53,655 nt of DNA from a virus, in IMG/VR virus record IMGVR_UViG_3300017971_000063, positions 1 through 53,655 of that record; one strand, given 5' to 3'. This document shows, in pieces, positions 18,314 to 38,614 of this stretch. Position numbers and translations under genes: made by a program. A model generated the notes under the pieces. That model had not been told where the DNA came from and did not search any database. It saw only the letters and a list, made by a program, of their open reading frames with translations. The number at the start of each line of letters is the position of its first letter. Positions within the stretch are counted from its first letter, which is position 1.

Positions 18314-18342
18314 TTGACAAATTGGCATCCCCGGACTATGAT
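18314..18342 (+). promoter_or_regulatory. Sigma70-like promoter for the leader-rich operon
   Basis: TTGACA at 18314-18319 and TATGAT at 18337-18342 are separated by 17 nt, with T- and A-rich tracts upstream. The spacer contains TTGGCAT, also found in the spacers of the promoters at 22074 and 32160. Confidence 0.8.
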
Positions 18343-18348
18343 GTAATT

Positions 18349-18591
18349 GTCAATTGAGAGTGAGTTCGAATCAACCTCTTGATTGTACACCGATCTTTGA
18401 CAACGGGAAGTTCGAAGGACAAAAGGTTTCAGGGCAGGGGCGGGGGACGCGGAAAGTGGTCCCCGGGAAAGCACCGCAAGTCGGCCACCTTGAAACACTC
18501 GGGCAACAAGACCGTCGGAACTATCTCAACCCGGAACCCGACAACGAAATCTCCGGGGGCGACACGACGGCAACCTCTCCCCTTTTAATCA
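18349..18591 (+). ncRNA. Long structured 5' leader (possible noncoding RNA)
   Basis: About 240 nt between the promoter and the first leader element have no convincing ribosome site. Several pairings are visible: GGGGAC/GTCCCC around 18444-18466, GTTTCA (near 18430) with TGAAAC (near 18493), and CGGG/CCCG arms around 18500-18540. The 93-aa frame opening at 18354 would start within a few nt of the predicted transcript start without a Shine-Dalgarno, so I treat it as noncoding. It may be a regulatory leader or a free RNA. No known family is recognised. Confidence 0.4.
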
Positions 18592-18673
18592 GGTATCAAG
18601 GCGGAGTCGAAGCGAGAGTTTCGGCTCCGAGTTGATCCTTGACGGATCACAACAAACGAAGGGGAGGTCGAAC
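18592..18673 (+). promoter_or_regulatory. Leader element L0 (P1/P2/P3 structured RNA)
   Basis: First copy of the repeated element. P1 is GG-T-ATCAA (18592-18599) with TTGATCC. P2 is CGGAGTCGAAGC, a GAGA (GNRA) loop, GTTTCGGCTCCG (18602-18629). P3 is TGATCC-TTGAC-GGATCA (18633-18649). AAGGGGAGG and the ATG at 18674 follow. Confidence 0.7.
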
Positions 18674-18856
18674 ATGGACGACAAGAAATTCGCAGTTTAT
18701 CAGGGGATCAGGGATACGGTTATTTCCGCGATGTATCGCGCGGACTACAACCGGAAGGACATCGAGGACGCGCTTCGGATGTTACGTGAGGACATCAACG
18801 AAGAGTTCGACGATCCGAAACCGGAACCGAAGAAATTCTCTCCTCACAACAAGTAG
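18674..18856 (+). CDS. Small acidic protein, unknown
   Basis: A 60-aa protein, the first gene of the leader-rich operon, with ATG 9 nt after AAGGGGAGG. It has a helical core (GIRDTVISAMYRADYNRKDI) and a polar Glu/Asp/Lys/Pro tail. Strong promoter, strong ribosome site and small size suit an early host-takeover protein, but no function can be read from sequence. Confidence 0.7.
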   Translation: MDDKKFAVYQGIRDTVISAMYRADYNRKDIEDALRMLREDINEEFDDPKPEPKKFSPHNK

Positions 18857-18858
18857 TC

Positions 18859-18938
18859 GAGGTTTCAACAAAGGGTCGGAGCGATCCGGCCCTTGATTGA
18901 ACCCTTGAAGGGTTCTCAACAACGAAGGGGAGGTTCAC
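18859..18938 (+). promoter_or_regulatory. Leader element L1
   Basis: P1 5' strand GAGGTTTCAA starts 2 nt after the upstream stop. P2 is AAGGGTCGGA-GCGA-TCCGGCCCTT (18871-18894) with a GNRA loop. P3 is GAACCC-TTGAA-GGGTTC (18899-18915). The Shine-Dalgarno is AAGGGGAGG. It is nearly identical to L3. Confidence 0.85.
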
Positions 18939-19238
18939 ATGAAAAAGTATTCGAGCGAGAAACATCTGGAGCAAGTCGAGAAACAGATCGAGCGCGAGGC
19001 GAAGGGAATCGTCTACGAGAATTTACAGAAAGCGGTTCACGCTCTCGTCGAACTTCACGACGACGCTTCGAAGTCCTATCACAAGGGCGGCGATTCTCTC
19101 GACGACAAGCGCGGATACAACGTTCGGTGTTTGATCTATCTCGACTTGATCCAGAAGATCAAGAAGATCGAAGGTAAATTCGACCCGAATGAGATTATCG
19201 AAGAGCCGGAAGTCCGGATCGTTCGAGTCGTCAAATAG
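18939..19238 (+). CDS. Helical protein, unknown
   Basis: A 99-aa protein, largely helical and charged (EQVEKQIEREAKGIVYENLQ), with a His/Asp-rich centre (LHDDASKSYHKGG) and a strand-like end. No family is recognised. It lies between leader elements L1 and L2 and is presumably co-transcribed with, but independently initiated from, its neighbours. Confidence 0.75.
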   Translation: MKKYSSEKHLEQVEKQIEREAKGIVYENLQKAVHALVELHDDASKSYHKGGDSLDDKRGYNVRCLIYLDLIQKIKKIEGKFDPNEIIEEPEVRIVRVVK

Positions 19239-19240
19239 TC

Positions 19241-19327
19241 GAGGTTTCAACAAGAGATCGGACTTCGGTCCGGTCTCTGATTGAACCCTTGCGGTTCAAA
19301 AACAAAACATCGAAGGGGAGGTTTACA
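19241..19327 (+). promoter_or_regulatory. Leader element L2
   Basis: P1 GAGG-T-TTCAA / TTGAA-C-CCTT. P2 has an 11-bp stem capped by UUCG closed by C-G. P3 is TTGAACC-CTTGC-GGTTCAA. A longer A-rich spacer precedes AAGGGGAGG. It is nearly identical to L4. Confidence 0.85.
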
Positions 19328-19594
19328 ATGAACAAGATCAAAGTTTCCTACGATTTGGCGAACGTGGTCGATGCGGCGAAGTGGATCAAGGGCGACGTCG
19401 AGAAGATCGTCGACGAGGCGACGTTCCGGACGCGGGAACTCGTCGAGATCGGCGACGATCGGGTCGAGGACGTCGTCGAGAGCTTCAAAGAACGAGCGCT
19501 CTCGGAAATTACCGACGCAAAGAAACACCTTGAAGCGCTTCACTCATGGATCGAGCGCGTAGGAAATCGCAAGAGCAAGGATCAGGAGAAATAG
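19328..19594 (+). CDS. Helical protein, unknown
   Basis: An 88-aa protein with ATG after GGGGAGGTTTACA. It is predicted nearly all helical and acidic (DVVESFKERALSEITDAKKH), with an Arg/Lys/Glu tail, as in a coiled-coil binding protein. I recognise no family. Flanked by L2 and L3. Confidence 0.75.
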   Translation: MNKIKVSYDLANVVDAAKWIKGDVEKIVDEATFRTRELVEIGDDRVEDVVESFKERALSEITDAKKHLEALHSWIERVGNRKSKDQEK

Positions 19595-19596
19595 TC

Positions 19597-19678
19597 GAGG
19601 TTTCAACAAAGGGTCGGAGCGATCCGGCCCTTGATTGAACCCTTGAAGGGTTCTCAATTCAAGAAGGGGAGGTTCACC
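19597..19678 (+). promoter_or_regulatory. Leader element L3
   Basis: Matches L1 base for base from the P1 5' strand through P3 (GCGA-capped P2, GAACCC/GGGTTC P3). The spacer to AAGGGGAGG differs. Confidence 0.85.
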
Positions 19679-19828
19679 ATGAAGATGTATCAAGTTTATA
19701 TTCTCAACGCGGACGGGACGACTCAATATACAAACGTATATACAGCGAACAGAAAGTTCGCCGACGATTACGCCGCTTCGATGACAAGTCTCGGATATTG
19801 CGCGGTTGTGGAAACAGTCGAGAAATAA
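19679..19828 (+). CDS. Very small protein, unknown
   Basis: A 49-aa protein with ATG after GGGGAGGTTCACC. It has two strand-like segments (YQVYILNADGTTQYTN and CAVVETVEK) around one helix (KFADDYAASMTSLG), a possible beta-alpha-beta fold. No family is recognised. Flanked by L3 and L4. Confidence 0.65.
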   Translation: MKMYQVYILNADGTTQYTNVYTANRKFADDYAASMTSLGYCAVVETVEK

Positions 19829-19830
19829 TC

Positions 19831-19913
19831 GAGGTTTCAACAAGAGATCGGACTTCGGTCCGGTCTCTGATTGAACCCTTGCGGTTCAACAACAAGGAAA
19901 GGGGAGGTTCACC
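19831..19913 (+). promoter_or_regulatory. Leader element L4
   Basis: Matches L2 through P3: UUCG-capped P2 and TTGAACC-CTTGC-GGTTCAA P3. The P1 5' strand begins 2 nt after the TAA stop. Confidence 0.85.
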
Positions 19914-20264
19914 ATGAAGCTTGCAAAGTTCGAGGAAAAGGTTTTCGTCGAGATCGTTCGCGGACAGTACAGCGGCGAGACGGGATTCTCCGACGTGATC
20001 CCGGAGGACATCTACAAGAATCTCGGATGTTCACCGAAGGCCGTCGGCGGCGCTCTTTCTTCTCTCGATAAAAAGGGACTCGTTTTCGTGGAAGATTTGA
20101 GCGGCCAACTCGACAACGGGATTCGAACGATTATCTATCTCACAACTAAAGCGTGGAAGATGGTCGGCGTCACCGACGAGGAGATCGGAAACGGTTATTA
20201 CGACCGCGAGACGATCGGCAAGTTCATGCGGTCGGCGATCGAGAAAGGGATCGTCGCAGAGTGA
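19914..20264 (+). CDS. Winged-helix-like protein
   Basis: A 116-aa protein. Residues ~5-60 (EEKVFVEIVRGQYSG, EDIYKNLGCSPKAVGGALSS, LDKKGLVFVEDL) read as helix - helix-turn-helix - beta wing, a winged-helix fold seen in MarR-like regulators. The rest is strand plus helix. It may bind DNA and regulate host or phage genes. The target is unknown and no operator is assigned. It is one of two DNA-binding-like proteins in this half of the genome. Confidence 0.65.
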   Translation: MKLAKFEEKVFVEIVRGQYSGETGFSDVIPEDIYKNLGCSPKAVGGALSSLDKKGLVFVEDLSGQLDNGIRTIIYLTTKAWKMVGVTDEEIGNGYYDRETIGKFMRSAIEKGIVAE

Positions 20265-20347
20265 GGTTTCAACGAAGGATCGGAACGAAAGTTCCGGTCC
20301 TTGATTGAACCTTCACGGTTCAAAATCAAGGAAAGGGGAGGTTGAGA
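20263..20347 (+). promoter_or_regulatory. Leader element L5
   Basis: The P1 5' strand GAGGTTTCAA overlaps the upstream TGA. P2 is a 12-bp stem AAGGATCGGAAC / GTTCCGGTCCTT with a GAAA loop. P3 is TTGAACC-TTCAC-GGTTCAA. AAAGGGGAGG follows. Confidence 0.85.
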
Positions 20348-20602
20348 ATGAAAACGATCACGACTCACAAGTTCGCAACGACGACGGAGTTCGACATCAA
20401 CAAGCGGATCGAACTCGGGATTCCGCTCACCCGGAAACAAGTCAAGGCGAAGAAACAACGGAAAGCGAATCCGCCGACCGCTCTCGGCTATCAACGGAAA
20501 CACGGCGTCGAGTGCGTTCCGGTCTACACTTCCGACGGTCATTGCTTCATCGCTCGGAAGGACGTCGCCGATCGCCTTCGGAGGAACGGCGAGTCAAGTT
20601 GA
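20348..20602 (+). CDS. Basic small protein, unknown
   Basis: An 84-aa protein with ATG after GGGGAGGTTGAGA. An upstream TTG at 20342 is ignored because spacing from the Shine-Dalgarno favours the ATG. A Lys/Arg-rich middle (LTRKQVKAKKQRKANPP) precedes a short strand pair (VECVPVYTSDGHCFIARKDV). Nucleic-acid binding is possible but not shown. Flanked by L5 and L6. Confidence 0.7.
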   Translation: MKTITTHKFATTTEFDINKRIELGIPLTRKQVKAKKQRKANPPTALGYQRKHGVECVPVYTSDGHCFIARKDVADRLRRNGESS

Positions 20603-20685
20603 CGTTTCAACAACGGCGCCGGACTTCGGTCCGGCTCCGGATTGAACCGTCAAGGTTCAACAATTCAGGAAGGGGAGGTTTCAAA
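20601..20685 (+). promoter_or_regulatory. Leader element L6
   Basis: P1 switches to GACG-T-TTCAA paired with TTGAA-C-CGTC, a compensatory change. P2 keeps its stem with one C/T mismatch and a UUCG loop. P3 is TTGAACC-GTCAA-GGTTCAA. The upstream TGA overlaps P1. Confidence 0.85.
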
Positions 20686-21126
20686 ATGGTCAAAAATATA
20701 ACGGTAGGAACGCGCGGAAACAAGAAGGTCAAGATCACGCTCCGTCGCAAGACTCACATGCGCCACCCGAACGGATGGTCAATCAAGGTCTACGATCCGG
20801 AGACGAAGATCACGACGGAAGGTTATACGAACCGTCTCGAACAACACGTCGCTCTCGAAAAGGCGATCGCTCTCGCTCACAAGATCGAGAATCGGAACGA
20901 GCTTCTCAACGCTCTCCGGACGATCACCGGCGACGCGGACATTCGCGGCTTTTGCTTCTCGCAAAATGACGCGGCGATCCGCGATCAGATCGCGAAGGGC
21001 GAAAAGGTCTCGGACGCCGAACTCGCGCGACACGCTCGGGCGAAGAAGGAATACTACGAGATCGTTCGACCGCTTTTTAAGACGGCGTTCGCGGCGTTCA
21101 AACACTTCCGCGACAAACAACTTTGA
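20686..21126 (+). CDS. Unknown protein
   Basis: A 146-aa protein with ATG after GGGGAGGTTTCAAA. Residues 1-45 are basic strands (VKITLRRKTHMRHPNGW), a central helix follows (HVALEKAIALAHKIENRNEL), and the carboxy end is helical and Arg/Lys-rich. The first half resembles a small DNA- or RNA-binding strand domain, but no family is recognised. Longest of the short genes in the leader operon. Flanked by L6 and L7. Confidence 0.75.
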   Translation: MVKNITVGTRGNKKVKITLRRKTHMRHPNGWSIKVYDPETKITTEGYTNRLEQHVALEKAIALAHKIENRNELLNALRTITGDADIRGFCFSQNDAAIRDQIAKGEKVSDAELARHARAKKEYYEIVRPLFKTAFAAFKHFRDKQL

Positions 21127-21128
21127 TC

Positions 21129-21214
21129 GAGGTTTCAAGTCCGAGGTCGAATTTCGGTTCGGCCTCGTGTTGAATCTTCGGAGCAAGGTTCAAAAAATAG
21201 AAGGGGAGGTCAAC
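21129..21214 (+). promoter_or_regulatory. Leader element L7
   Basis: P1 GAGG-T-TTCAA / TTGAA-T-CTTC, a different compensatory partner. P2 CGAGGTCGAAT-TTCG-GTTCGGCCTCG. P3 TTGAATC and GGTTCAA with a longer 10-nt loop. AAGGGGAGG follows. Confidence 0.8.
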
Positions 21215-21478
21215 ATGGAATACGACGAGATTTTAAGTTTCGCGTCCGAGGCCGATCGGTTACGGTCGAGCGCTTCGGAGATCAGCAGGAAAGCGGGACG
21301 GGTCGCCGGAGAGATCAACGAGTTCGTGACTACGCTCGCGCTCAAGAAGGACGATCCGGGTCGGTGTCTCAAGGCGTCGCGAGTAATGTTGAAAAATATC
21401 GTCACGCGATCGCTCGAACTATCGGACGAGATCGAGGAACTTCTCGGACGCTTCGAGATCGAAGAAAGCAAAAAGTAA
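21215..21478 (+). CDS. Coiled-coil protein, unknown
   Basis: An 87-aa protein, almost entirely helical with heptad-like Leu/Ile spacing (SEADRLRSSASEISRKAGRV; IVTRSLELSDEIEELLGRF). It is likely a small coiled-coil or helical-bundle protein. Function unknown. Flanked by L7 and L8. Confidence 0.75.
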   Translation: MEYDEILSFASEADRLRSSASEISRKAGRVAGEINEFVTTLALKKDDPGRCLKASRVMLKNIVTRSLELSDEIEELLGRFEIEESKK

Positions 21479-21482
21479 AGTC

Positions 21483-21564
21483 GACGCTTCAACGTGGGGA
21501 TCGAAGTTCGCTTCGGTCTCCGATTGAGTCGTCGAGACTCAACAACAAAGAAGGGGAGGTCGTT
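21483..21564 (+). promoter_or_regulatory. Leader element L8
   Basis: P1 GACG-C-TTCAA / TTGAG-T-CGTC. P2 GGGGATCGAAG-TTCG-CTTCGGTCTCC. P3 TTGAGTC-GTCGA-GACTCAA, where both P3 strands changed together relative to L2. Confidence 0.85.
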
Positions 21565-21936
21565 ATGAAAAATAGAATGTTGTATAACGAGGACGGCTCG
21601 ATTGCGATTCCGTTTTCGAAAGTGAGTTTCTTCGCCGTCGATCAACCTCGCGGGAAGAAGTTCACGATCGAAGCGTATTTCGTCCCGGGACACTCCGACG
21701 AGGAACGCTCCTTCACGATCAGCAAACACGAGACCGAGGAAGAAGCGAAGTCCGCGTTGAAGGCGATCCGGGAAGCGGAATCGCGGAACGATCTCGCGCT
21801 CGCGGTGAGTATCCTCAAGAACGCTCGCCGCGCAATGCGTTTGACGGAAGCGGAAGATTCTCCCGTCAAGGAACTCCGGCTCGAAGGGTTCGACGCCGCG
21901 ATCGACGTTCTCTCGAAAGTGTCAAGCGGTTCGTGA
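21565..21936 (+). CDS. Unknown protein, last gene of first leader block
   Basis: A 123-aa protein with ATG after GGGGAGGTCGTT. Strands dominate residues 1-50 (KKFTIEAYFVPGHSDEERSF) and helices the rest (EEEAKSALKAIREAESRNDL). The central helix and following segment resemble those in the 146-aa gene at 20686 (repeated ESRNDLALAV / ENRNELLNAL-type helices), so the two may share a domain. No known family. A hairpin and a new promoter follow. Confidence 0.7.
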   Translation: MKNRMLYNEDGSIAIPFSKVSFFAVDQPRGKKFTIEAYFVPGHSDEERSFTISKHETEEEAKSALKAIREAESRNDLALAVSILKNARRAMRLTEAEDSPVKELRLEGFDAAIDVLSKVSSGS

Positions 21937-21971
21937 CGAACGATCACCGCGACGAGACAAGGGCGATCTCG

Positions 21972-21999
21972 GAGGGACGGTCTCTCGGGGCCGTCCCTC
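21972..21999 (+). terminator. Hairpin ending the first leader block
   Basis: A 9-bp perfect stem (GAGGGACGG / CCGTCCCTC) with a 10-nt loop and no U-run. It lies between the last gene of the block and the next promoter, so it is probably a terminator or 3' stabiliser. Confidence 0.45.
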
Positions 22000-22073
22000 G
22001 AAACCCTCAACAAACGGCCTCTCCCGACCTTGTCACGCCGAGAAAAAAAAGCGCAAAAAAAAGAAAAAAGTGC

Positions 22074-22103
22074 TTGACAATTTGGCATACATGACCCTAT
22101 AAT
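22074..22103 (+). promoter_or_regulatory. Sigma70-like promoter for the ArdC-like gene
   Basis: TTGACA at 22074-22079 and a perfect TATAAT at 22098-22103, with an 18-nt spacer and a long A-rich tract upstream that looks like an UP element. The spacer contains TTTGGCAT, as in the promoter at 18314. Confidence 0.85.
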
Positions 22104-22112
22104 ATAGTTACG

Positions 22113-22158
22113 TTGAGAGTCAAGCTTGACTCTCGAAATTCAGGAAGGGGAGGACAGA
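22113..22158 (+). promoter_or_regulatory. Simplified leader (L9): P3-type hairpin only
   Basis: GAGAGTCA (22115-22122) pairs with TGACTCTC (22127-22134) around an AGCT loop, followed by GGAAGGGGAGG and ATG. P1 and P2 are absent here, in the one leader that follows a promoter instead of an upstream stop codon. Confidence 0.65.
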
Positions 22159-22989
22159 ATGGCCTACACGAAGAAGAGCAAGGAGTTTTACGAAAACCGG
22201 AAAAAGGAGATCGAAGGGAAGCTCGACAAGGTTCTCCGCGAGTCGTTCACCGACGCCGAGAAGATGCGGAAACTCTCGCTTCACTTCCGGATCACCGGTC
22301 TTTACAACTATTCGTTCATCAATTCGATCTTGATCGCTTCGCAGGGCGGGAAGCTCGCGCAGTCGTTCAAGGCGTGGAAGAAACTCGAACGTCACGTCAA
22401 GAAGGGCGAGCGCTCGAAGATTTTTATCTTCATTCCCTATTTCAAGAACGTCGACGAGAAGAACGCGATCACCGGCAAGACCGAGACGATCAAGAAGCTC
22501 GTCGGGTTCGGGACCGGTCCGGTTTTCGACATCGATCAGACGGACGGAAAGCCGCTCGAATACGATCACAACTCCGAGGACGTGATCGACGTCGACTATA
22601 CCGAACTAAAAGTCAAGGTCGAGAAAGGATTCGACGTCGAGATCACCGAGAAGTACACGGGAAGCGCTCGCGGATACACCGACGGGAAGCGGATCGCGAT
22701 CTCCGAGATGTCGAACAATACGGACAAGGTCAAGACGCTCGTCCATGAACTCGCTCACGTCGTCCTCGAACATTGCGGGAAGGGTCGCAAGGCGCGGAAC
22801 GTGGTCGAGGTCGAAGCGGAAGCGGCGACGCTCTTCGTCGAATCGTTCCTCGGCTACGACGTCGAACTCTCCGAGACCTACATTGCGAATTGGAAGTCGT
22901 CGGAGATCGGGCGGGACAGCTACAAGAACGTAATCCGCGCGGCGGACAAGATCATCAAGTCGCTTTTCATCGAGAAAAAAGCGGCGTAG
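22159..22989 (+). CDS. ArdC-like antirestriction protein
   Basis: A 276-aa protein. Residues ~35-110 match the ArdC amino-terminal ssDNA-binding-like domain (LHFRITGLYNYSFINSILI, AQSFKAWKKLERHVKKGERS, FIPYF). Residues ~190-205 contain a gluzincin zinc motif (VHELAHVVLEH; H196, E197, H200), followed by EVEAEAATLFVESFLGYDV. ArdC proteins block host restriction of incoming DNA. A strong dedicated promoter and a perfect -10 box fit early, high expression. Only the motif-level match is seen; antirestriction activity is inferred from family. Confidence 0.85.
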   Translation: MAYTKKSKEFYENRKKEIEGKLDKVLRESFTDAEKMRKLSLHFRITGLYNYSFINSILIASQGGKLAQSFKAWKKLERHVKKGERSKIFIFIPYFKNVDEKNAITGKTETIKKLVGFGTGPVFDIDQTDGKPLEYDHNSEDVIDVDYTELKVKVEKGFDVEITEKYTGSARGYTDGKRIAISEMSNNTDKVKTLVHELAHVVLEHCGKGRKARNVVEVEAEAATLFVESFLGYDVELSETYIANWKSSEIGRDSYKNVIRAADKIIKSLFIEKKAA

Positions 22990-22994
22990 GTTGC

Positions 22995-23078
22995 GAGGTT
23001 TCAACGACGAGGTCGGAGCGAAAGTTCCGGCCTCGGATTGAACCCTTGCGGTTCAAATCAAGGAAGGGGAGGTCGAGA
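22995..23078 (+). promoter_or_regulatory. Leader element L10
   Basis: P1 GAGG-T-TTCAA / TTGAA-C-CCTT. P2 CGAGGTCGGAGC-GAAA-GTTCCGGCCTCG with a GNRA loop. P3 TTGAACC-CTTGC-GGTTCAA. GGAAGGGGAGG follows. Confidence 0.85.
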
Positions 23079-23510
23079 ATGAAAAAAAAGTTGTGGAGCG
23101 AGTTTCGGAAGTCCCTCGAAGGGATCGCCGACCGATACACCGCGAAAGCGGAACGGATCGAACAGTCCGACGACATCGCCGACGGTGACTCCTTCCTTTC
23201 CGGAGCGGAGAAGGCCGCGCTCGCCGCGAAATATTACGGCAAGGCCGAAGCGGTCGAGATGGTCGACGAGTTCGTCGACGAAGCTCGGTCGGAAAGTGAA
23301 GAGGTCAAACGCTCGATCGTTGCTCCGATCGTTCTCTCGAAGGTGAATGATTTGATCGTCGCGGAATCGGCGGAGTTGGAAAGTGCGAAGCGGAAGAATC
23401 TCTCGACGAGTGCGATCGTCGCTCGTCTCACCGCCGAAGTCGATCAACTCGGTCGGCTCAAAAAACAAGTCGAGGGATTCGTCAACCGGCCAGTCGACAA
23501 AGAGAATTGA
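23079..23510 (+). CDS. Helical protein, unknown
   Basis: A 143-aa protein with ATG after GGGGAGGTCGAGA. It is nearly all helical and acidic with an Ala/Glu/Lys pattern (GAEKAALAAKYYGKAEAVEM; VAPIVLSKVNDLIVAESAEL). Likely a coiled-coil or helical-bundle accessory protein. No family is recognised. Flanked by L10 and L11. Confidence 0.75.
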   Translation: MKKKLWSEFRKSLEGIADRYTAKAERIEQSDDIADGDSFLSGAEKAALAAKYYGKAEAVEMVDEFVDEARSESEEVKRSIVAPIVLSKVNDLIVAESAELESAKRKNLSTSAIVARLTAEVDQLGRLKKQVEGFVNRPVDKEN

Positions 23511-23512
23511 TC

Positions 23513-23597
23513 GACGCTTCAAGGCGTGATCGGACTCCGGTCCGGTCACGAGTTGAGTCGTCGAGACTCGCAGGATCAAGGAAGGGGAGGTTTCAAA
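23513..23597 (+). promoter_or_regulatory. Leader element L11
   Basis: P1 GACG-C-TTCAA / TTGAG-T-CGTC. P2 GTGATCGGAC-TCCG-GTCCGGTCAC with a UNCG-type loop. P3 GAGTC-GTCGA-GACTC, with its outer pairs partly lost. AAGGGGAGG follows. Confidence 0.8.
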
Positions 23598-23864
23598 ATG
23601 GAAACGCCGGATATTTACAGCGACGAGAATTTGGGGAAACTCAAATTCAAGAAGGACCGACCTCTCAAATCGTGGAAGGTCATGCGGTTCTTTCGCGCGC
23701 GAGGATGGTCGTTGATCCTCACCGTCTACGAGGCCGAGATCGCGAAGCGACACGTCGAGACGTTGATCGCGAATGGCGTCGCCGTCTCCGATCTCATGAT
23801 CGTCGAAACGATCGAGATCGAAACGCGGGTCGAAGTAGATCGAGAGTCGGAGGTTTCAAAATGA
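23598..23864 (+). CDS. Unknown protein
   Basis: An 88-aa protein with ATG after GGGGAGGTTTCAAA. A strand-helix-strand pattern (KVMRFFRARGWSLILTVYEA, RHVETLIANGVAVSDLMIVE) suggests a small alpha/beta domain. No family is recognised. It overlaps the next gene by 4 nt, so the last two genes of the block share one leader element. Confidence 0.7.
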   Translation: METPDIYSDENLGKLKFKKDRPLKSWKVMRFFRARGWSLILTVYEAEIAKRHVETLIANGVAVSDLMIVETIEIETRVEVDRESEVSK

Positions 23865-31886: not shown

Positions 31887-31893
31887 ATGGTCC

Positions 31894-31965
31894 GACTCCG
31901 TCGTCTAACGGACAGGACGCCGCCCTTTCAAGGCGGGAACGCGGGTTCAATTCCCGCCGGAGTCG
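31894..31965 (+). tRNA. tRNA-Glu (TTC anticodon)
   Basis: Acceptor GACTCCG pairs with CGGAGTC. The anticodon stem CCGCC/GGCGG encloses CTTTCAA (anticodon TTC). The T-arm is GCGGG-TTCAATT-CCCGC. 3' CCA is not encoded. All four arms are present. Confidence 0.9.
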
Positions 31966-32066
31966 AACGGGTATAGCCATGCCGAAGTCGGCCAGAGGAA
32001 CCTTTGTAAAGGAGCGAATCTGTCGTCCGACAAAAGCTATTGACAGCCGGGAAAGACCGGCACAAC
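31966..32066. other. Structured RNA-like intergenic segment, no gene
   Basis: Contains a segment resembling a tRNA-Tyr D-arm region (ATGCCGAAGTCGGCCAGAGG) and TTTGTAAAG, plus small hairpins (GCCGG-GAAAGA-CCGGC near 32046-32061). A T-arm and a matched acceptor are missing, so no tRNA is called. It may be a degraded tRNA. Confidence 0.4.
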
Positions 32067-32148
32067 GAGCGGCGGCGATATTATACGACGGTTCAATCCG
32101 GAGACCGTCGTCGGCGTGATCTTCCGGGTTCGATTCCCGGGCCGCTCA
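32067..32148 (+). ncRNA. tRNA-like element without a recognisable anticodon arm
   Basis: A 7-bp acceptor-like stem (GAGCGGC / GCCGCTC) and a normal T-arm (CCGGG-TTCGATT-CCCGG) are present over 82 nt. The middle holds a 7-bp hairpin (ACGACGG/CCGTCGT) with a 13-nt loop instead of D and anticodon arms with U33 and a purine at 37. It may be a diverged tRNA, a tRNA remnant, or a tRNA-like RNA. Confidence 0.5.
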
Positions 32149-32159
32149 AAAAAAATTGC

Positions 32160-32374: not shown

Positions 32375-33297
32375 TTGACCCCAAATTTTGGGCGAGTGAG
32401 AAGGTCGGGAAACTCACGTTTCGACAACGGTTGTTTTTGATCGGACTTTTCAGCAACGCGGACGACGAGGGAAGGTTGATCGGAGCGCCGACGCTTCTTC
32501 GGTCGACGATCTTCCCATACGACGATATTCCGATCGAGGAAATCGAAAAAGACCTTGCCGCTCTCGAAAGAACGAAGGACCGCCCGGGTTCTCTCGTTCG
32601 ATACGAAATTGACGGATCGAAGTTTATCGCGTTGACGAATTGGAAGAAATATCAAACGATCAATCGACCTCAAAAGAGCTTACTTCCCGAACCCAAAGGA
32701 ATTGCGCGTTCATTGATTGATTCAATGAATGATTCAGTGAACGGATCAGTGAATGATTCACGGGGTCATTCATTGAACGATTCACGAGCAAAGGAAAGGA
32801 AAGGAAAGGAAAAGAAAGGAAGTACGTCCGAGAAAAATCCCTCGGACCCGATCCCCGAAGTCGCTCCGCTCCTTGAAAAACTCGAACTTCACATTCGTAC
32901 GATAATCCCGGGGAAGAACTTCAAGGCGAATTGGAGATCGAAGCAGGGCCGCGCGTTCCGGCTCCTCCGCGACGCCGACGGAATAGATTTCCCGGCTCAA
33001 CTGAAAACGCTCGAATGGGTACGGACCGGATCGTCACGCGACGCGATATTCTGGCGCAAGAATATCCTTTCCGCCGAGAAGTTCCGGATTCAATACGAGA
33101 AACTCGAAGCGGCGAGGACGGTCGAATCTCGTGCTTCTGGAAACGTGACGCGGCTCTCGACGTGGACTTGCCCGAAGTGCGGGAAGAAGGTCGAGGTCGG
33201 GAACGGTCGTCACCATGCGACGTGTACGAAGTGCGGCGAAGAATTATGGTCGTCCGATCCGAAGGTCCGAAAGGAGTCCCGGGTTGTCGTTAGCTAA
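32356..33297 (+). CDS. Replication initiator / replisome organiser-like protein
   Basis: A 313-aa protein. The amino-terminal ~110 residues have the winged-helix-like pattern of phage replication organisers: IDPKFWASEKVGKLTFRQRL, then FLIGLFSNADDEGRLIGAP and FIALTNWKKYQTINRPQKS. A Ser/Asn/Asp repeat linker follows (residues ~118-145, NDSVNGSVNDS), whose DNA contains iteron-like repeats. The carboxy part is helical (RAFRLLRDADGIDF) and ends in a zinc ribbon (CPKCGKKVEVGNG ... CTKCG). By analogy with lambda O it should bind the origin inside its own gene and recruit host helicase. Confidence 0.75.
   Translation: MARRRMIDPKFWASEKVGKLTFRQRLFLIGLFSNADDEGRLIGAPTLLRSTIFPYDDIPIEEIEKDLAALERTKDRPGSLVRYEIDGSKFIALTNWKKYQTINRPQKSLLPEPKGIARSLIDSMNDSVNGSVNDSRGHSLNDSRAKERKGKEKKGSTSEKNPSDPIPEVAPLLEKLELHIRTIIPGKNFKANWRSKQGRAFRLLRDADGIDFPAQLKTLEWVRTGSSRDAIFWRKNILSAEKFRIQYEKLEAARTVESRASGNVTRLSTWTCPKCGKKVEVGNGRHHATCTKCGEELWSSDPKVRKESRVVVS
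32717..32820 (+). repeat. Candidate replication origin: iteron-like repeats plus purine tract
   Basis: GATTCA(A/G)TGA-type repeats begin at 32719, 32731, 32744, 32755 and 32779 with ~12-nt spacing (one 24-nt gap). They are followed by AAAGG repeated from 32790 to 32820. The repeats lie in the linker coding part of the initiator gene, as in lambda O. Confidence 0.55.
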
Positions 33298-38523: not shown

Positions 38524-38528
38524 AATAT

Positions 38529-38599
38529 TCCCGGGTCGTTCAACGGCAGGACTCCGCTCTTTGGAAGCGGAAACGGAGGTTCGAATCCTTCCCCGGGAG
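38529..38599 (+). tRNA. tRNA-Gln (TTG anticodon)
   Basis: Acceptor TCCCGGG/CCCGGGA. D stem GTTC/GGAC. Anticodon stem CCGCT/AGCGG around CTTTGGA (anticodon TTG). T-arm GGAGG-TTCGAAT-CCTTC with one G-U pair. CCA is not encoded. It sits in the gap between two protein genes. Confidence 0.88.
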
Positions 38600-38614
38600 A
38601 ACAAGGAGGAAACA

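Follow-up and report, generated by a model that had tools for sequence, protein, structure and literature searches.

Eleven copies of one RNA element of about 80 nucleotides (nt), located at positions 18588–23600 of the IMG/VR virus record IMGVR_UViG_3300017971_000063 (53,655 nt, analyzed in full and hereafter called the window), probably serve as messenger RNA (mRNA)-processing signals of the T7 early type, each with an added refolding step; we assign this reading a probability of about 0.6. The textbook example of a phage that employs RNase III between its genes is provided by the sites at which the early mRNA of T7 is cut. The copies described here, each situated between a stop codon and AAGGGGAGG, resemble such sites in shape and length as well as in where they lie and where their loop falls. 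We regard the family and its structure as established from the sequence, and we infer cleavage, the enzyme, stabilization, and product release.

The element family

An earlier sequence-only reading of this stretch had proposed eleven elements of common architecture, and all of them are present: A degenerate core pattern yields exactly 11 matches in the window and none in 100 dinucleotide shuffles. A covariance model scores the 11 copies at 77–98 bits and all other plus-strand matches at ≤20 bits, with the reverse strand of the 11 hairpins reaching up to 33 bits; a match of this model at 32721 was rejected as a simple repeat within a coding region. The copies c2/c4 and c3/c5 are near-duplicates (95% alike), which leaves about nine independent copies, and the genes between the copies are not paralogous.

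The same reading had assigned one element to almost every gene of a single operon. The number of copies stands, but they belong to two transcription units, each with a strong sigma70-like promoter (Table 1), and two genes lack an element: Gene 22159 has its own promoter and a simple hairpin only, and gene 23861 overlaps the preceding gene (ATGA). The proposed start of P1 at, or 2–5 nt after, the upstream stop codon holds for most copies (0 nt after in c2, c3, c4, c5, c8, and c12; 2–3 nt after in c9 and c11), but P1 overlaps the stop in c6 and c7, and c1 is preceded by a 240-nt leader that is not convincing as a gene.

Structure and covariation

Each copy, folded alone, gives one extended hairpin. 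P1 and P2, which had been described as distinct stems, both exist but are continuous with each other in the order P1a (5–6 base pairs, bp), a 1×1 mismatch, P1b (5 bp), a 2×2 (3×2, 2×1) loop, P2 (10–13 bp), and a tetraloop. The mismatch is pyrimidine–pyrimidine in every copy (U–C, C–U, or U–U), the tetraloop is GNRA or UNCG in 11/11 as had been claimed, and in all copies the helix comprises about 24 layers, 11–12 or so below the central loop and 10–13 above it. The reportedly conserved internal U–G pair of P2 occurs in 10 of the 11 copies; c7 has C–G in that column. Columns 22–26 of P2 are nearly invariant and the lower part of P2 covaries freely. Every copy has AAGGGGAGG downstream of the hairpin P3, as proposed, and each element is followed on its 3′ side by an A-rich unstructured spacer and a strong Shine–Dalgarno (SD) sequence.

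The claim that pairing is kept while bases change was borne out for all stems. In P1+P2, 98.6% of cells are paired and 10/20 pairs show two-sided change; the covariation score of 0.416 (0.191 in shuffled alignments, 0/500 as high) lies above all shuffles and all slid controls, in agreement with RNAalifold. For P3, in whose alignment the longer loops and the bulge of c2/c4/c8 were trimmed by hand, 96.8% of cells are paired, 2/7 pairs are changed two-sidedly (in c1 and in c9/c12), and the score is 0.317 versus 0.150 (1/500 as high). Covariation support is strong for P1/P2 and moderate for P3. As it was computed from copies within one genome, about nine of them independent, and homologous genomes did not turn up, we regard the covariation as genuine but of little depth. 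Moreover, 22 cells are G–U on the plus strand and correspond to A–C mismatches on the opposite strand; because of these and the conserved U–G pair, the constraint lies on the mRNA.

The 3′ strand of P1 is at the same time the 5′ strand of P3, so that the two stems exclude each other, exactly as the sequence-only reading had stated. In intact RNA, P1+P2 is favored over P2+P3 by 3.7–9.1 kcal/mol in 11/11 copies (predicted energies), and P1 is able to pair while the 3′ strand of P3 has yet to be transcribed. Consequently, the formation of P3 requires that P1 is either opened by a ribosome or cut away.

Comparison with RNase III sites of phages T7 and T3

Recognition stem-loops for RNase III are annotated in the T3 record; among them, R0.5, R1, and R4.7 start on the upstream stop or only a few nt away from it, and 19–24 nt separate their ends from the next start. 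When folded, the T7 and T3 sites share the plan of the elements: T7 R1 and T3 R1 consist of 4–5 bp, a 1×1 (U–C) mismatch, 5 bp, a 2×3 loop, 9 bp, and a 4-nt loop, which is the same stem order. Sites of this kind (R0.3, R0.5, R1, R1.1, R1.3, R4.7) are likewise located between cistrons of one polycistronic transcript, with the upstream stop at or close to their start and SD and start codon downstream, form hairpins of about 50 nt with a lower stem, a central loop, an upper stem of 9–12 bp, and a short loop, and carry a U–G pair 5–6 bp up the upper stem. The features typical of the T7/T3 type, a helix roughly two turns long that is interrupted by a central internal loop and a location between stop and SD in a polycistronic unit, were found in 11/11 elements. 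A strict definition of the shape captures all eleven elements, 2/12 T7/T3 sites, and 10/5598 strong background windows; most of the other T7/T3 sites miss it because a short predicted pairing splits the loop or because the mismatch is absent.

When 7.2 kilobases of T7 are searched with the model derived solely from the elements, the best match falls on R1.1 and is in register, with GAUUGA at the known cut site, though it reaches no more than 6.7 bits (E 1.2). We take the cut coordinate in R1.1 to be 5887/5888, which agrees with a 13-nt product. In the portion of PMC4858673 drawn on here, R1.1 RNA is cut once into 47+13 nt, and since the position 13 nt before the site end is the G of GAUUGACC, the cut falls before GAUUGACC.

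Predicted cleavage and refolding

We placed a cut at the T7-equivalent position on the 3′ side of the loop, folded the products, and scored their first 28 nt against shuffles. In 11/11 copies the P3 hairpin then lies at, or ≤4 nt from, the new 5′ end (−7.2 to −9.5 kcal/mol), and in 10/11 this hairpin is within the best 3% of shuffles; among five T7 products, only that of R1.1 has a comparable one. The hold of P3 is not absolute, since the minimum-energy folds of the full-length products of c5, c6, c8, and c11 pair the SD region in place of P3. In c1, the leader stretch CUCUCCCCUU pairs with the SD, which is closed in intact RNA (open 0.00) and is opened to 0.84 by the modeled cut. The second transcript begins with a plain hairpin lacking P1/P2, as expected if P1/P2 are needed only for cutting from an upstream neighbor, and the unit 1 leader likewise starts with a hairpin. 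The modeled effect of the cut therefore fits RNA processing, which the sequence-only reading had named as one possible use.

The following course of events would account for these observations. As long as the polycistronic transcript is uncut, the stretch behind the stop would fold as P1+P2, a helix with a central internal loop, and a host RNase III-type enzyme would cut at this loop, at least on its 3′ side immediately ahead of GAUUGA or the corresponding sequence. Upstream, the mRNA would be left ending in the P2 hairpin, and the downstream mRNA would start about 2 nt before the 5′ strand of P3, which, freed from P1, could refold as P3. Product release is rate-limiting for RNase III according to the pertinent part of PMC4858673; the unimolecular P3 would compete with the P1 duplex, which now involves two molecules, and might thereby help to separate the products. 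It would also cap the new mRNA with a 5′-terminal hairpin, followed by the A-rich spacer and the strong SD. The outcome would be mostly monocistronic mRNAs with a hairpin at each end; in c1, the cut would additionally remove the anti-SD stretch. We tentatively extend this to a joint reading, somewhat less probable than not, in which one strand serves twice, first as the 3′ strand of an RNase III-type hairpin and, once this has been cleaved, as the 5′ strand of a terminal hairpin; one 80-nt cassette, present ahead of almost all genes in the two operons, would then end and release one mRNA and cap and start the next.

Several points weigh against processing. A model of 12 T7/T3 sites finds 0/11 elements and thus no detectable sequence homology; because the cross-model matches are weak or none, our claim is one of likeness in architecture and layout, not of homology. 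In the excerpt of PMC5371410 consulted, newly mapped Escherichia coli RNase III sites likewise lack a close match to the consensus. The loop of the elements is small and symmetric (2×2) compared with 4/5 in R1.1 (as given in the relevant lines of PMC6121014), which might result in cutting of both strands or in weak cleavage. No RNase III is recognizable among the proteins of the phage record, so that a host enzyme would be needed; the family is present in 8/14 control genomes, and a host copy is plausible. UCGRA/UYCGG in P2 is strongly conserved and could be a protein site instead. Finally, the evidence is at the sequence level and comes from one genome.

Alternative explanations

The other use offered by the sequence-only reading was a sensor of upstream translation, in which a ribosome terminating at the upstream stop occupies the 5′ strand of P1, P3 takes shape, and the next gene's translation is tuned (translational coupling). 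The geometry permits this: P1 starts at the stop codon in almost every copy, its exclusion of P3 is backed by covariation, and with its 5′ strand blocked by a modeled ribosome at the stop, P3 forms in most copies. The SD, however, is contained in neither P1 nor P3, and its modeled accessibility upon blocking rises in c1, c2, c7, c8, and c12 and is approximately unchanged or falls in c3, c4, c5, c6, c9, and c11; this inconsistency speaks against switching of the SD but leaves room for subtler effects. A location next to the stop is just as common for the RNase III sites of T7/T3, and no convincing gene precedes c1; we consider such a switch unlikely. We also considered the middle strand as an anti-SD (pairing AAGGGGAGGUUCA) and rejected it as a mechanism of general validity: The pairing is possible after the cut in c5, c6, and c11, and the complementarity is lost in c9 and c12.

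A site for a phage or host RNA-binding protein that represses, activates, or antiterminates the units as a regulon, with UCGRA/UYCGG in P2 and the U–G pair as its core, would explain the near-invariant P2 columns above a freely covarying lower P2 and would place many copies under common control. It leaves P3, the exact overlap of P3 with the P1 3′ strand, and the uniform loop position unexplained, and no candidate binding protein was identified, so that we judge it improbable to a like degree. An uncleaved insulator, that is, a stable hairpin that separates cistrons, keeps the SD free of upstream coding RNA, and stops 3′–5′ decay, agrees with the high stability of P1+P2 and with the unstructured spacer and strong SD behind each element; a simple stem would suffice for this, however, the central loop, the pyrimidine mismatch, and the compensatory changes in P3 find no explanation, and the SD of c1 is closed in intact RNA, which renders this option still less likely. 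Very improbable is an element that acts at the DNA level only, as a repeat for recombination, packaging, or replication: Recombination can homogenize repeats such as the near-duplicate pairs, but the strictly kept orientation and register relative to stop and SD, the G–U cells kept on the mRNA strand, and the non-paralogous intervening genes speak against it.

Genome context

The window encodes capsid-protease, portal, TerL, and tape-measure genes; the features of the two units are collected in Table 1. The leader of unit 1 is highly structured without a clear gene, its 3′ end being an anti-SD for the first gene; a UAA lies just 5′ of c1, and the leader is possibly a remnant gene or an attenuator. 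The second unit is headed by an ArdC-like anti-restriction protein (ArdcN plus M78-type metallopeptidase, 22159–22989) with its own perfect promoter. The promoters at 18314, 22074, and 32171 share an extended motif around −35 (GCTTGACAA, then TTGGCAT or TGGCAT), a stricter form of which occurs in only nine other viral records. The spacers between SD and start at 20677–20684, 23589–23596, and 23852–23859 read GGTTTCAAAATG, the letters of the P1 5′ strand GAGGTTTCAA; judging from this identity, P1 may have originated by copying of a ribosome-binding site. Elsewhere, the phage carries genes for tRNA-Glu(TTC) (31893–31966) and tRNA-Gln(TTG) (38528–38600), and 31967–32150, after tRNA-Glu, looks like further tRNA-like or structured RNA (GGTTCAATCC, GGTTCGATTCCCGG) uncalled by ARAGORN.

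Table 1. Features of the two transcription units (window positions).
Feature	Positions	Strand	Gene	P1	P2	P3	SD	Remarks
Promoter 1 (unit 1)	18314–18342	+						TTGACA-17-TATGAT, 11/12 match
Leader of unit 1	18346–18590	+						structured, ~240 nt; 5′ end hairpin UCAAUUGAGAG...CUCUUGAUUG; 3′ end anti-SD stretch CUCUCCCCUU at 18575–18585
c1	18588–18673	+	18674	5′ strand 18588–18599	18602–18629	P1 3′/P3 from 18632	18661	
c2	18857–18938	+	18939	18857–18868	18871–18894	P1 3′/P3 18897–18919	18927	
c3	19239–19327	+	19328		19253–19278	19281–19299	19315	
c4	19595–19678	+	19679		19609–19632	19635–19657	19666	
c5	19829–19913	+	19914		19843–19868	19871–19889	19901	
c6	20261–20347	+	20348		20275–20302	20305–20323	20335	stop codon within P1
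c7	20599–20685	+	20686		20613–20639	20642–20660	20672	stop codon within P1
c8	21127–21214	+	21215		21141–21167	21170–21193	21203	longer P3 loop
c9	21481–21564	+	21565		21495–21521	21524–21542	21553	
Promoter 2 (unit 2)	22074–22103	+						TTGACA-18-TATAAT, 12/12 match
Plain 5′ hairpin	22113–22137	+	22159					UUGAGAGUCAAGCUUGACUCUCGAA; start of second transcript, without P1/P2, ahead of ArdC-like gene
c11	22993–23078	+	23079		23007–23035	23038–23056	23066	
c12	23511–23597	+	23598		23525–23550	23553–23571	23584	

Relatives and other known systems

The covariance model that the sequence-only reading had suggested building recovers its eleven copies. Viral, phage, plasmid, and genome collections yielded no relatives, and the elements correspond to no Rfam family. 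At the Rfam gathering score, the window contains two tRNAs only, and the element region gives weak sub-threshold matches. Exact and degenerate P1/P2/P3 patterns returned single chance matches or none from viral and genome contig collections, and the covariance model supported none of these convincingly; with the ArdC-like protein and TerL as queries, protein searches retrieved no close phage, 39 records (mostly distant TerL relatives) and the nine promoter-sharing records contained no credible element copy, and a blastn search with the operon gave no match among phages or plasmids. No plus-strand site resembling an intrinsic terminator or attenuator (hairpin plus U tract) is present at any element.

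The start-associated repeats (SAS/ESAS) of cluster K mycobacteriophages, to which the elements had been likened with the caveat of a different sequence, are, in the sections of PMC3203893 used here, likewise repeated, mostly in one orientation, located before many starts, and accompanied by an upstream inverted repeat. The difference in sequence is confirmed and the analogy is weak: ESAS is a 17-bp inverted repeat tied to the 13-bp SAS GGGATAGGAGCCC, for which the window has one match with two mismatches versus 0.9 expected, that is, chance level, and those sections describe neither a stop-codon link nor an alternative hairpin for ESAS. P3 is more akin to the 5′-terminal stabilizing stem-loops of bacterial mRNAs (of the type of Emory et al. 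1992, as cited in the pertinent passage of PMC7509114) in that it would lie 2–4 nt from the 5′ end and precedes a single-stranded spacer and SD; it differs in forming only once P1 has been opened or cut.

The closest parallel is provided by the T7/T3 sites, from which the present array differs not only in sequence and loop. Its 11 copies are nearly uniform, one per gene, and they share a conserved P3 predicted to follow the cut; of five T7 sites, only R1.1 has a comparable hairpin, and its 3′ strand overlaps a T7 promoter. We therefore read the elements as a probable T7-like array of processing sites in which refolding supplies the 5′ hairpin. If our reading is true, a sequence-unrelated phage with a more regular array would suggest that the strategy arose more than once, and the element would be a small, naturally occurring part by which an operon is divided into mRNAs that each have their own end and cap; the simple prediction is processed 5′ ends at eleven named positions.

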